Assembly: GCF_002072175.1 (NCBI RefSeq)
Contig: NZ_MVIV01000004.1
Coordinates: forward strand, 186,001-250,000
DNA length: 64,000 nucleotides
Reading direction: 5' to 3'
From: Actinomyces gaoshouyii
Lineage (GTDB): Bacteria > Actinomycetota > Actinomycetes > Actinomycetales > Actinomycetaceae
A model generated the notes under the pieces. That model did no database searches and was not told the DNA's origin. It was given only the letters and a program-made list of their open reading frames with translations. Below are positions 13,283-18,920 of the stretch, piece by piece; the stretch's first letter is position 1; every line of letters begins with the position of its first letter. The position numbers were made by a program, and so were the translations under genes.

Positions 13283-14527
13283 ATGGCTTCCCCTCGTGTC
13301 CTCGCAATCATCCTCGCCGGCGGTGAAGGCAAGCGCCTCATGCCCCTGACCGTCGATCGGGCCAAGCCCGCCGTGCCCTTCGGCGGGATCTACCGGCTCA
13401 TCGATTTCTCCCTGTCCAACATGATCAACAGCGGCTTCCTCAAGGTCGTCGTGCTGACCCAGTACAAGTCGCACTCGCTGGACCGCCACATCGCCAAGAC
13501 CTGGCGCCTGTCGAACATGCTGGGCAACTACATCGCGCCCGTGCCCGCGCAGCAGCGCGTGGGCAAGCACTGGTTCCTCGGCTCGGCGGACGCGATCTAC
13601 CAGTCCCTCAACCTGCTCGACGACGAGCGGCCGGACTACGTGGTGATCACCGGCGCGGACAACATCTACCGCATGGACTTCTCCCAGATGCTGGACCACC
13701 ACATCGCCTCCGGACTGCCCTGCACCGTCGCGGGCATCCGCCAGCCGCGGTCCCTGGCGGACCAGTTCGGCGTCATCGAGTCCGACCCGGCCAACCGGGG
13801 CGTCATCAAGGCCTTCGTGGAGAAGCCGAAGAACACCCCCGGGCTGCCCGACTCCCCCGACGAGATCCTCGCCTCGATGGGGAACTACATCATGAACGCC
13901 GACGCCCTCCTGGAGGCCGTGACCGCTGACGCCGCCGACGAGTCCTCCAAGCACGACATGGGCGGCAACATCGTGCCGTGGTTCGTCTCCCGGGGTGAGG
14001 CCGGCGTCTACGACTTCAAGGACAACGACGTCCCCGGGGCAAGCGAGCGCGACCGCAGCTACTGGCGCGACGTCGGGACGGTGGACGCCTTCTACGAGGC
14101 CCACCAGGACCTCATCAGCGTCAGCCCCGTGTTCAACCTGTACAACGACCGCTGGCCGCTGTTCGCCGGATATGACGCCTCGATGCCCCCGGCGAAGTTC
14201 ATCTACGCGCACCACGAGCGCCTGGGGCACGCCGTTGACTCGATCGTCTCGCCCGGCGTCATCGTCTCCGGTGGCGAGGTGATCTCCTCGGTGCTCTCGC
14301 CGTCGGTGCGAGTGAACTCGTGGTCCTCGGTGCGCTCGTCGGTGGTCATGGACGGCGCGCAGATCGGCCGGAACACAGTGGTTAACCGCGCGATCCTCGA
14401 CAAGCACGTGGTGATCGAGGAGGGCGCGATGGTCGGCATTGATCGCGAGCACGACCTCGAGCGCGGCTTTACCGTCACCGAGTCCGGCATCACCGTGGTC
14501 CCCAAGGGCAAGGTTGTCACGCGCTGA
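13283..14527 (+). CDS. glgC: Glucose-1-phosphate adenylyltransferase
   Basis: Makes ADP-glucose from glucose-1-phosphate and ATP, the committed step of glycogen synthesis. The 414 residues match the family length. The nucleotide-binding start is [15 protein letters not shown], then AKPAVPFGG, the sugar-binding [10 protein letters not shown], and VEKPKN. A left-handed beta-helix domain occupies the last 110 residues. It is divergent from glgA, so the two can share regulation, and it ends at a strong hairpin at 14534-14568. Confidence 0.95.
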
Positions 14528-14533
14528 GGCACT

Positions 14534-14568
14534 CCCCGGGGCCGGCCGATCCCAAGCCGGCCCCGGGG
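14534..14568 (+). terminator. glgC terminator
   Basis: Perfect 13-bp stem, 14534-14546 with 14556-14568, and a 9-base loop. It begins 7 bp after the glgC stop and separates glgC from serB. Confidence 0.8.
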
Positions 14569-14618
14569 ACGCGCTCGGCGAGGGGCCGGGCGGCACGGGC
14601 GACGTCGTTGGGAGCAAT

Positions 14619-15251
14619 ATGAGCACGGGACCGGGCCTGCTGGTGATGGACGTGGACTCCACGCTCATCGAGCAGGAGGTCATCGAGCTCATCGCCGAGC
14701 GGGCGGGGACTCGAGAGGAGGTCGCCGCCGTCACTGAGCGGGCGATGCGCGGCGAGTTGGACTTCGCGGCCTCGCTGCGCGAGCGGGTGGCGACGCTGGT
14801 GGGCGTGCCGGAGACAGTATTCGCCGAAGTCCTGGCCGAGATACGCCTGACGCGCGGGGCGGCGGGCCTCATCACGGGTCTGCATGAGCGGGGCTGCGCC
14901 GTGGGCGTGGTCTCAGGGGGCTTCGAGGAGGTCGTCCTGCCCCTGGCCGAGCGCCTGGGGATCGATCATGTGGCCGCCAACCGGCTGGAGGTCGCCGATG
15001 GGCACCTCACCGGGCGGGTCCTGGGGAGGATCGTGGATCGAGGCGTGAAGGAGGCCTGCCTGCGCCAGTGGGCGGCTGAGCGCTCGGTGCCGATGGAGCG
15101 CACGGTGGCGGTGGGCGACGGCGCGAATGATCTCGATATGATCCACGCGGCGGGCCTCGGGATCGCGTTCTGCGCCAAACCGGTGGTCCGCGAGCAGGCC
15201 CCGGCGCGGATCGACGCGCGCGACCTGCGCCTCGTGCTCGACCTCCTCTAG
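14619..15251 (+). CDS. serB: Phosphoserine phosphatase
   Basis: HAD-superfamily phosphatase that releases serine from phosphoserine. The 210 residues start at ATG 14619, with GGGAG five bases upstream. Motif I is VMDVDSTLI (nucleophile and acid Asp), motif II is VVSGGFEE (Ser), and motif III is VGDGANDLDM. It is the short form without the N-terminal ACT domains found in mycobacterial SerB2. It sits about 90 bp after glgC behind a terminator, so it probably has its own promoter. Confidence 0.92.
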   Translation: MSTGPGLLVMDVDSTLIEQEVIELIAERAGTREEVAAVTERAMRGELDFAASLRERVATLVGVPETVFAEVLAEIRLTRGAAGLITGLHERGCAVGVVSGGFEEVVLPLAERLGIDHVAANRLEVADGHLTGRVLGRIVDRGVKEACLRQWAAERSVPMERTVAVGDGANDLDMIHAAGLGIAFCAKPVVREQAPARIDARDLRLVLDLL

Positions 15252-15269: not shown

Positions 15270-15301
15270 CGAGACCGGTCGAAAACATGGGCGAGACCGG
15301 T
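15270..15301. repeat. CGAGACCGGT tandem pair, copy 1
   Basis: Decamer CGAGACCGGT at 15270-15279 and again at 15292-15301, exactly 22 bp apart; the first copy continues CGAAA. The same arrangement with the same 22-bp period occurs at 30530-30561. Confidence 0.6.
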
Positions 15302-15624
15302 TGGCCGTCCACAGGACAGTGCTGGTGGTGAGGGTTTTCCACAGGTTGGTGGTGGGGCCTGGCGCTAGGGGTGGGCGGGGCCCTTGCCCTGGCGGCCTGC
15401 CGCGCCCTAGACCCAGCACCGCTGACGGCCCGTGCCAAGGACCCCGCCCCGCCCGAGGCCAGCGGGGCCCCTCCCACCCAACTGGCGGCCGCCGGCCCGA
15501 GCGAGGCCACCGCCCCGGCGCCGACCACCGACGCGCTCGACAGTGGTACCGGAGTGGGCACAGGTGCCAGGCGACACGGTGGGGTTCCCATCGACGCATG
15601 AGCCGCAGGACAGCAATTCGTCGA

Positions 15625-15675
15625 GGCCGGACGACGCCTACCCTCAGGCGTCAGGAGTGCGTTAGCGCGGGCCAT
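15625..15675 (-). pseudogene. IS481-type transposase, N-terminal relic
   Basis: Read on the minus strand from ATG 15675, the first 17 codons give MARANALLTPEGRRRPA. This closely matches the start of the relic at 51290 (MTDANAPLTPEGRRRLA), including the bases just before the ATG. Similarity stops abruptly after that, before the helix-turn-helix. It is the torn 5' end of an IS481-like transposase gene at the edge of the AT-richer island. Confidence 0.65.
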
Positions 15676-15968
15676 GAAGGCCCCTGAAGGGCCGTGAGCG
15701 CGGTGACCCGCGTCCTACCGGAGGCTTCCGCCTGCCCACGAACCCGTTCGCGGCCTTCCGAGGACGCGGGACAGGGCGCGAGAGCACTCCCCCCCCCCAT
15801 CCCTCTGCGAGATCAAATCCTTCACCATATCCGAGATGATCCACCCCCTTCGTTGCGTCCGACAGATTCCATGGGCCTCCCCGTGGCCCTCAAGGACAAT
15901 TCCAAGATGGGCAGCGACATCATAGGCGCCCCCCGGGACGCTGTGTGCGCTGTTTCCGGCAGGACCGA

Positions 15969-17789
15969 TCAACGGCCCTGCAGGGCCTGGGCGTCATACA
16001 TATTGCGATAATGCGCGCAGCCTTCCATTAAGTCCGCGTGCCTGCCAACGCCAACGACCGCACCATCATCGACGACGATGATCCTGTCCGCATGAGCCAC
16101 TGTGGCGAATCTATGCGAGACGAGCACGACTGTCGTCTCGCCCCCAAGCGCGGCCATGGCCTCGAAAAGTATCTTCTCCGAGACCGCGTCCACAGAAGCG
16201 GTCGGCTCGTCAAGGACCAACAGGCGAGGCTTCTTCACCAAGGCCCTCGCAGCCGCGATCCGCTGCCACTGCCCAATAGACGGTTGATGACCTCCCTCAA
16301 AATGCCGCCCCAGCATCGTGTCCAACCGCTCAGGCAGGGACATGGCCCAATCCCTCAGTCCGACCGCTTCAAGAGAATCCCAGAGCCGTTCATCATCAGC
16401 GGTGCCACGATCTCGCGGATAGCCGTATTCAATATTGTCTCGCAACGATCTCTCATATTTAACGAAATCTTGGAAGAGAGCGGAGGACCATGAGCATAAA
16501 TATTCTCGCGACAGCTCCCCGATGGGGCGGCCATCAACGAAAATTTCCCCTTCATCCGGCTCATAGAACCTTAGCAGCAATTTACATATCGTTGATTTGC
16601 CGCAACCGTTGACTCCGACAAAAGCGGTGATGCTGCCACTGTCGATCGAGAAGGAAACATCATTCAACGCGAGAACATCAGTCCCAGGATATCGGAAGCT
16701 CACATTACGGAACTCCACTGAGCCGCCGCGCCCACCGGAAGGCCCTCGGAACGCGCCTTCAGCGATACGGGCGGGTTTCGTATCGACCAGTGCCGCCCAA
16801 TTTGACACATAAAGAAGATGCTGATAAATGCCTGTGAAGCCGATGAACGCCGCGAGCACTAATGGGCCGACCTGAGTAGTGGCCGAAATAAATCCCGCAA
16901 GCTCGCCCACCCTATTATGCGCCCCGGCAACAATTGCCGCGTAAACCACTGCGCCGAAGCTGGCGAGCACAGAGACCATCCCAAGGCCTCCGGCCTGGAG
17001 GAGAGTGAAGCGCGCCAGGCCGATGTCTTGGCGCAAGAAATTTTTCTTGATCAACGAATACGAGTCCGTGAACAGTTCATCCAGGCGGAATAGGCGAGTT
17101 TCCTTCTTGGCGCTATCCGACATGAGCAAGCCGCGGAAGTATCCCGCCAGCCTAGCCTTCGCGGCACGCTCGTACTCTATATCATAAGCCCTCGTTTGAA
17201 CGCGAAAAGTAGCAACGCATCCAGGGATAGGGGCGACAAGGAGTATCGATGCTATAACAGGGCTCCATTGCCAGAGCACTGCGCATATGCTCAGCAGCGA
17301 CAGCAGCGATTGGATCGCAGATCTCAGCGTATCGAACAAACCGTAGACGTGCTCACCCGTCGATTCGTTCACACGTTGGATGATGTCATACGTCTTTGAG
17401 GATTCAAAATTTTGCACCTCCATGTCCCCCAGTCGTTGAGCCACATCGATCTCTATGTCATACGATAGCCTTAAAGTTAAGGTATCTCCAAGGAATTTGA
17501 TCATGTTCTCGAGAATGTATTTCACGAAAACAATCAGTCCGAACACGATGGCCCAAACGAGGTACCCTCTATGACCAGCACTGTCCACGACTGACGATAC
17601 GAGAACTCCGACCGCATATACTTGCGCCCCAGGGAGAATACCGGCCACTATCGACAATATTCCGATCACGGCGAAGCGGCGACGCGCGCTTCTGCCGATT
17701 CGACTCCAAGCAATGCTCGTTGTCCGGGACAGGGGAGCCGCCCCGCGCATCAATTGCCGTGGCTCAAACTCAGTTTCCACAGCAATCAT
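15969..17789 (-). CDS. Peptide/lantibiotic-type ABC exporter (fused TMD-NBD)
   Basis: A 606-residue half-transporter: a six-helix membrane domain (about residues 40-310) followed by one ATPase domain (about 350-600) with GVNGCGKST, RLLVLDEPTASVD and the switch His in VLVSHRF. The signature reads QPSIGQWQRIA, so LSGGQ is replaced by PSIGQ, with the GQWQ seen in lantibiotic exporters. No peptidase domain precedes it, as in NisT-type LanT. It overlaps the upstream LanB-like stump by ATGA. Start choice is uncertain: ATG 17789, ATG 17837, or GTG 17780, nine bases after AGAAAGGGG. Base composition is clearly lower in GC than the neighbours, and many AT-ending codons are used, pointing to transfer. 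Confidence 0.8.
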   Translation of the reverse strand: MIAVETEFEPRQLMRGAAPLSRTTSIAWSRIGRSARRRFAVIGILSIVAGILPGAQVYAVGVLVSSVVDSAGHRGYLVWAIVFGLIVFVKYILENMIKFLGDTLTLRLSYDIEIDVAQRLGDMEVQNFESSKTYDIIQRVNESTGEHVYGLFDTLRSAIQSLLSLLSICAVLWQWSPVIASILLVAPIPGCVATFRVQTRAYDIEYERAAKARLAGYFRGLLMSDSAKKETRLFRLDELFTDSYSLIKKNFLRQDIGLARFTLLQAGGLGMVSVLASFGAVVYAAIVAGAHNRVGELAGFISATTQVGPLVLAAFIGFTGIYQHLLYVSNWAALVDTKPARIAEGAFRGPSGGRGGSVEFRNVSFRYPGTDVLALNDVSFSIDSGSITAFVGVNGCGKSTICKLLLRFYEPDEGEIFVDGRPIGELSREYLCSWSSALFQDFVKYERSLRDNIEYGYPRDRGTADDERLWDSLEAVGLRDWAMSLPERLDTMLGRHFEGGHQPSIGQWQRIAAARALVKKPRLLVLDEPTASVDAVSEKILFEAMAALGGETTVVLVSHRFATVAHADRIIVVDDGAVVGVGRHADLMEGCAHYRNMYDAQALQGR

Positions 17790-18235
17790 CCCCTTTCTAG
17801 ATAGGTGTATCGATGGATTATCTTCCTCAACATCCATAGAATATCGGTTTCAAATTCCCTGTTCGCTGAATTCAGTCGGTTGCAATGCACGTGCATAAGA
17901 GAGTCGATAATCGAATTATACTGACCAGAACCGAGGTCGCGATGATTAGCAATCGTTGTCACCGGATCAGAATTGAGCATCGCCATACTATCTCTTTTTT
18001 GTGGATCATTAAATATATCTCGAAAGAACGCTAGTAAGGGATCTCTCTGCTTTGAATGCGCATTCATAGAAATTTTAGTAGCATGGATATCCCTCGGAAT
18101 GCGATCAAGTAGGTTATGAGGCTCGATACCTAGCACATCAATATATTCAATCAACGACTTGACGCCATCAATTGGTAAAATTGGATCACTCCGCCTGTCG
18201 GTCTTGTACCTCTTGACCAAGACCTGGAGCGCCAC
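17786..18235 (-). pseudogene. C-terminal remnant of a LanB-type lantibiotic dehydratase
   Basis: An AT-rich reading frame of 149 codons with no proper start: the first usable codon is GTG 18235 and an in-frame stop lies just upstream. The last 45 residues, including IIDSLMHVHCNRL and then REFETDIL, resemble the closing helices of the SpaB_C/thiopeptide domain of LanB proteins. That domain normally follows an RYGG motif and the HxRxR region; neither is present, so the catalytic part is missing. It overlaps the exporter by ATGA, the normal lanB-lanT order. The junction near 18240 coincides with a return to high GC. It could instead be an unrelated small protein. Confidence 0.55.
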
Positions 18236-18377
18236 AGACTAAGCATCCAACTCATCACCACACCTTCTTGATCACGCCCTTGGAACGAGCAAGCTCCCAT
18301 CGCGCTTCCACAGGCGCGCTGCCGGTCCCCTCCACGCCTCTTTGCGGGCCACTTCCGCAGAGCGCTCATGACGGCGA

Positions 18378-18920
18378 CTAATGGGCGGGGGTGAGAAGAT
18401 CGATGACCTCGGCGGTGCCGCCGGTGAGGGCGTTCCACGGCGAGCCCACCCGCAGGACGGCGGCGTTGGCGGTCGACATGCCGTAGGAGACCCGCCGCCC
18501 GAGGTCGCTCACTCCCCCATCGAGATAGGCGGCGAGCTCGGAGGTCGTCGGCTCGTGCCCCACCACGATCACCGTGCGCGCGCCCGGCCCCGCCTGACGC
18601 ACCAGCTCGAGGACGGCCCGGCCTCCCCCGAAGTACACGTCCTCCTCCACGAGGGCTCGCCCCGGGGACAGCCTCTCGGCGATCGGCTGGGAGGTCTGCC
18701 GCGCGCGCTCCGCGGGCGAGACGATGAGCAGGTCGGCGCTCCCCACCCGGGTGGCGAGGACCGCCGCCAGGGCCCGGGCCTGCGCCGCGCCGGCGTCGGA
18801 CAGTGGGCGCTCGATATCCGTGGGCGCCGCGGCGGCACGGGCGTGGCGGATGAGGACGAGCGTGCGGGCCTCAGCGGCATCGGCGGCGCCAACAGCGGCG
18901 TCGGGGGCGGTCTCAGTCAT
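18378..18920 (-). CDS. SixA-like phosphohistidine phosphatase (histidine phosphatase family)
   Basis: Histidine-phosphatase superfamily protein of 180 residues. The catalytic RHA motif is in LVLIRHARA near residue 24, the second catalytic His is in VVGHEPT, and the paired arginines are in SPAERARQT. The short length without a cap fits the SixA branch, which removes phosphate from phosphohistidine, but sugar-phosphate substrates are possible. ATG 18920 is preceded by GAGGAGG. The fabI-like gene ends 66 bp upstream on the same strand. Confidence 0.82.
   Translation of the reverse strand: MTETAPDAAVGAADAAEARTLVLIRHARAAAAPTDIERPLSDAGAAQARALAAVLATRVGSADLLIVSPAERARQTSQPIAERLSPGRALVEEDVYFGGGRAVLELVRQAGPGARTVIVVGHEPTTSELAAYLDGGVSDLGRRVSYGMSTANAAVLRVGSPWNALTGGTAEVIDLLTPAH

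Follow-up and report, generated by a model that had tools for sequence, protein, structure and literature searches.

The 64,000-nucleotide stretch of Actinomyces gaoshouyii DNA analysed here (the window) contains, between serB (14439..15251, plus strand; HAD/hydrolase Pfam matches) and a sixA-like phosphohistidine phosphatase gene (18378..18920, minus strand; PF00300, 41 bits), an inserted island that harbors an intact ABC exporter gene and the stump of a lanB gene. SixA is present in 49 of 49 congeners and serB is its genus-wide neighbour; the true start of serB probably lies inside the open reading frame 14439..15251. The GC content is about 0.72-0.77 in the flanks versus 0.42-0.60 between the two genes. 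On the serB side it steps down near 15.8 kb, from 0.74 to 0.60, has its minimum of 0.415 at 17.8-18.2 kb and is back at 0.68-0.77 beyond 18.3 kb. The drop in base composition had been described in the original prediction and is real; its edge, which had been placed near 18240, is the stop codon of sixA at 18378, where the composition changes sharply.

Next to serB, at 15345..15600 (plus strand), lies the start remnant of a DUF6318-type lipoprotein gene with an in-frame lipobox (LAAC), of which positions 15380-15481 show 77% DNA identity with the upstream/start region of an intact DUF6318 gene that the congener G067 carries at this site. It is followed by a frameshifted insertion-sequence relic (15625..15764, minus strand), which matches, at 71-77%, multi-copy elements and the ends of contigs in the congeners G021, G020, G024, G035, G023 and G003. 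That the relic stems from a multi-copy element is thus borne out, and its earlier assignment to IS481, as the N-terminus of a transposase of this type, is plausible, but the one annotated protein match, to an IS481 transposase, is weak (E = 8). Overlapping the end of the relic is a segment of 222 bp (15718..15939, no strand assigned), delimited by a blastn gap versus the sister species G033 between 15717 and 15940, and at the other end of the island 142 bp (18236..18377, no strand assigned), with stop codons in the frame of the stump, separate the latter from sixA; neither segment has a Pfam, plasmid or genus match. Between serB and the lipoprotein remnant, window positions 15270-15315 belong to a dispersed intergenic repeat based on CGAGACCGGT, of which there are many copies in the own genome, in G033, in G004 and in G067.

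The exporter gene (15969..17789, minus strand) is an open frame of 606 codons and was rightly called intact. It encodes a fused membrane and ATPase half-transporter (PF00664, 32 bits; PF00005, 98 bits), in which a Pfam search found no C39 peptidase domain, and has thus the architecture of a class I LanT. A scan of bacterial genomes yielded 55 relatives of the exporter, about two dozen of which have a homologue of lanB, of lanC or of both in the neighbourhood, among them those of Geobacillus thermodenitrificans DSM 465 and of Clostridium, Enterococcus and Streptococcus species. The order lanB-exporter-lanC, seen in about two dozen related loci, agrees with the lanB-lanT order that had been called canonical; beside the exporter described here and beside that of G034, no more than a stump of lanB remains.

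In a tree of 70 exporters, the deep branching order of which is unsettled, the exporter falls outside the LanB-adjacent LanT clade of the Bacillota and groups (100/97) with two congeneric exporters, those of G030 and G003, its nearest well-placed relatives, the neighbours of which are a radical-SAM and a methyltransferase-like protein. This placement speaks against a lanthipeptide-type origin of the locus. A more distant actinobacterial relative, that of Jidongwangia, has a stand-alone SpaB_C protein and a LanC encoded within a few kb. Since the relatives lie beside lanB/lanC, radical-SAM or SpaB_C and LanC genes, the assignment as a RiPP exporter, predicted from neighbourhood and domains, is safe. 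The earlier label "LanT-like" holds in this wider sense; a place inside the Bacillota LanT clade is contradicted by the tree, which groups the protein with actinobacterial RiPP exporters, and strict LanT membership, though not proven by the tree, is likely. The cassettes of G003 (L026:9114-14004) and G030 (L182:12507-17343), in which the radical-SAM and methyltransferase-like proteins stand beside the exporter relative, are AT-rich and IS-flanked and encode a protein of about 220 amino acids that may be a precursor; they possibly represent an unstudied RiPP family.

Upstream of the exporter lies a frame of 149 codons (17786..18235, minus strand), the stop codon of which overlaps the exporter's ATG at 17789 as ATGA, as had been noted before. 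The frame matches Pfam Lant_dehydr_C with E = 1.1e-4 (22.9 bits, just under the cut-off of 24.4) at positions 201-253 of the 255 of PF14028, that is, with the domain end only and not with a complete elimination domain, and NCBIfam TIGR03891 (thiopep_ocin) with E = 3e-6 (27 bits; cut-off 48.45). With a profile of 17 LanB tails, taken from loci in which a relative of the exporter is encoded as well, the frame reaches 41.5 bits, and none of 1000 shuffles exceeds 5.9. The proposal that the frame is the end of a LanB/SpaB_C protein was therefore correct. Homology to LanB is secure for residues 91-147 (the last ~57) and likely for residues 24-90: residues 1-90 alone score 1.1 bits versus 6.5 for the best shuffle, which is not significant, and residues 24-147 align over their whole length with the profile when 24-90 are taken together with the tail. 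The first ~20 residues have no assignment. An extension of the homology further upstream, through the in-frame stops, was tried and rejected, the score never being raised by 5-45 added codons.

In NisB, Arg786, Arg826 and His961 are the glutamate elimination residues (PMC4979651; PMC4341554). The tail of the stump aligns to NisB 951-991 and hence retains only the equivalent of His961; those of Arg786 and Arg826, after which the frame begins, as well as the glutamylation domain are missing, in line with the claim that the frame lacks the catalytic part. The stump cannot be a working dehydratase.

The rest of the pathway is missing too. The island's frames contain no candidate for a precursor LanA, and cyclase and immunity genes were not found locally, as first reported. 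Moreover, in the whole genome, which is 99.99% complete, there is no match to the LanB glutamylation/N-domain (PF04738), none to the LanC cyclase (PF05147) and no second Lant_dehydr_C, so that no class I lanthipeptide machinery is left for the exporter. Within the genus, the best match to the LanB N-domain is in G012 (L181:6574-9818), in which a near full-length LanB is followed by LanC; the C-terminus of this LanB is split over two frames by a frameshift or an assembly error.

In most congeners examined sixA and serB are adjacent with a short gap (in G004, for example, the site is empty), the exceptions being G033 and G067. In G067 (L173:2432-4474) the site is occupied by genes for a DUF6318 lipoprotein and a PKD-domain protein, which are unrelated to the exporter cargo. 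This pair and the DUF6318 start remnant in the window together indicate that the gap carried cargo before, which suggests that insertions recur there. The sister species G033, which is 93% identical, also carries the exporter between sixA and serB, but not the LanB stump. It retains the counterpart of window positions 15940-17794, which hardly differs in extent from the exporter gene, and lacks 15718-15939 and 17795-18377; the trimming stops only a few bases short of the exporter start, so that there the exporter directly follows sixA.

Comparison of the two exporter genes revealed 125 nucleotide differences, distributed 32/17/76 over the three codon positions (p = 1.6e-10), and neither an indel nor a stop over 606 codons. 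The differences lead to 42 amino-acid changes (10 in the ATPase half, 32 in the membrane half), whereas 2000 neutral simulations gave a mean of 81 and a minimum of 63; dN/dS is 0.034/0.203, about 0.17. By this pattern of substitutions the exporter has been under purifying selection since the split from G033, which supports the earlier suggestion that it was kept although the dehydratase is broken. That LanB was lost before the species split is the parsimonious reading, not a proven one; had each species lost it independently and not long ago, the constraint on the exporter could mostly predate the loss.

The origin and status of the stump can be read in two other ways. Instead of a fused LanB, its source could be a SpaB_C protein of the split, stand-alone kind (thiopeptide or split-LanB type): split systems occur in the genus, a stand-alone SpaB_C and a LanC are encoded within a few kb of the Jidongwangia exporter, and the E-value of TIGR03891 is somewhat better than that of Pfam. 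We regard this origin as unlikely, since the stump reaches just 1.8 bits with a profile made from split SpaB_C tails of the genus, versus 41.5 bits with that of fused LanB tails, and since tail followed by exporter is the order expected of lanBT operons. Very improbable is that the 149-codon frame encodes a small protein that is functional, as a tail domain standing alone and partnering the exporter. Its openness over 149 codons, the ATGA, which would allow translational coupling, and the intact HxHxNR-type motif speak in its favor; yet G033 lacks the frame despite having kept the exporter, the tail in G034, the one close relative, is just ~60 codons long and again directly precedes an exporter, known stand-alone SpaB_C proteins have about 300-390 amino acids, and among 396 genomes of the order not one contains a stand-alone orthologue of the same length, as had been anticipated.

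A further reading concerns the exporter itself, which could also be decaying and be intact only because the decay is recent, without having a present function. The C-loop of its ATPase reads PSIGQ here and in G033, as compared with LSGGQ, LSIGQ or similar in the relatives, nearly all of which, where the motif is readable, are hydrophobic at the position of the proline. The Leu to Pro exchange, common to both species, may weaken the ATPase activity, which leaves room for a slow decay; also, the homologue in G034 already contains a stop and the partner genes are all gone. Against this stand the amino-acid changes at half the neutral expectation, the strong codon-position bias and the 606 codons without an indel, as well as the finding that in G033 the gene survives although the remnants flanking it are gone up to a few bases from it; a decaying exporter without present function is thus unlikely.

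We therefore consider it highly probable that the island is a decayed class I lanthipeptide-type locus between sixA and serB of which the exporter has been retained, and the original prediction was essentially right. The common ancestor of A. gaoshouyii and G033 would have received, between sixA and serB, a cluster for a class I lanthipeptide or a closely related RiPP, with lanB followed by the exporter. Subsequently, the genes for precursor, cyclase and immunity would have been lost together with five sixths or more of lanB, from its start onwards, leaving behind a non-functional LanB stump; the exporter, under purifying selection since the species split, would have gone on working as a membrane pump. 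The data show the insertion, the LanB tail, the loss of the catalytic parts and the constraint on the exporter, whereas the product class of the ancestral cluster, the sequence of the losses and the present substrate are inferred. Its present substrate is most likely some other small peptide or amphipathic compound; immunity, the other putative reason that had been offered for its retention, appears to be the less likely use. It is possible, but we hold it only tentatively, that the exporter was co-opted after loss of the lantibiotic machinery and now either exports an unrelated endogenous substrate or protects against the peptides of neighbours; co-option would place the retained exporter behind sixA, directly so in G033.

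Decay of a cluster is of a known, ordinary kind, and what is added here is the evidence from a sister species for retention of the exporter. The locus is a clean case of a biosynthetic cluster being reduced to its exporter, with stump and pump in A. gaoshouyii, the pump alone in G033 and an empty site in most congeners. It also cautions genome mining that a Lant_dehydr_C match beside a LanT may be no more than a relic, and provides an orphan peptide exporter under selection, the substrate of which is testable.

Among known systems, the lanBTC operons of the geobacillin/nisin type (L085-L091, L123) likewise have the LanB tail immediately before an ABC exporter that lacks a peptidase domain, in the same gene order, and NisB shares with the stump the tail motif SIIDSxxHVHxNR. 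Unlike these operons, the island is without lanA, lanC and immunity genes, its LanB is cut to the last ~130-150 residues, and its exporter is only about 28-30% identical to theirs. The cassettes of G003 and G030 contain an exporter of the same small clade; their maturation, however, would involve a radical-SAM and a methyltransferase-like protein and no LanB. The locus in G034 (L024 10512-12541) is, as here, a decayed pair in which a LanB tail of ~60 codons (46% identical over 41 amino acids) immediately precedes an exporter (52% identical), and differs in lying away from sixA/serB at another chromosomal site, in being flanked by ISL3 transposases and in having an in-frame TAG in its exporter gene.
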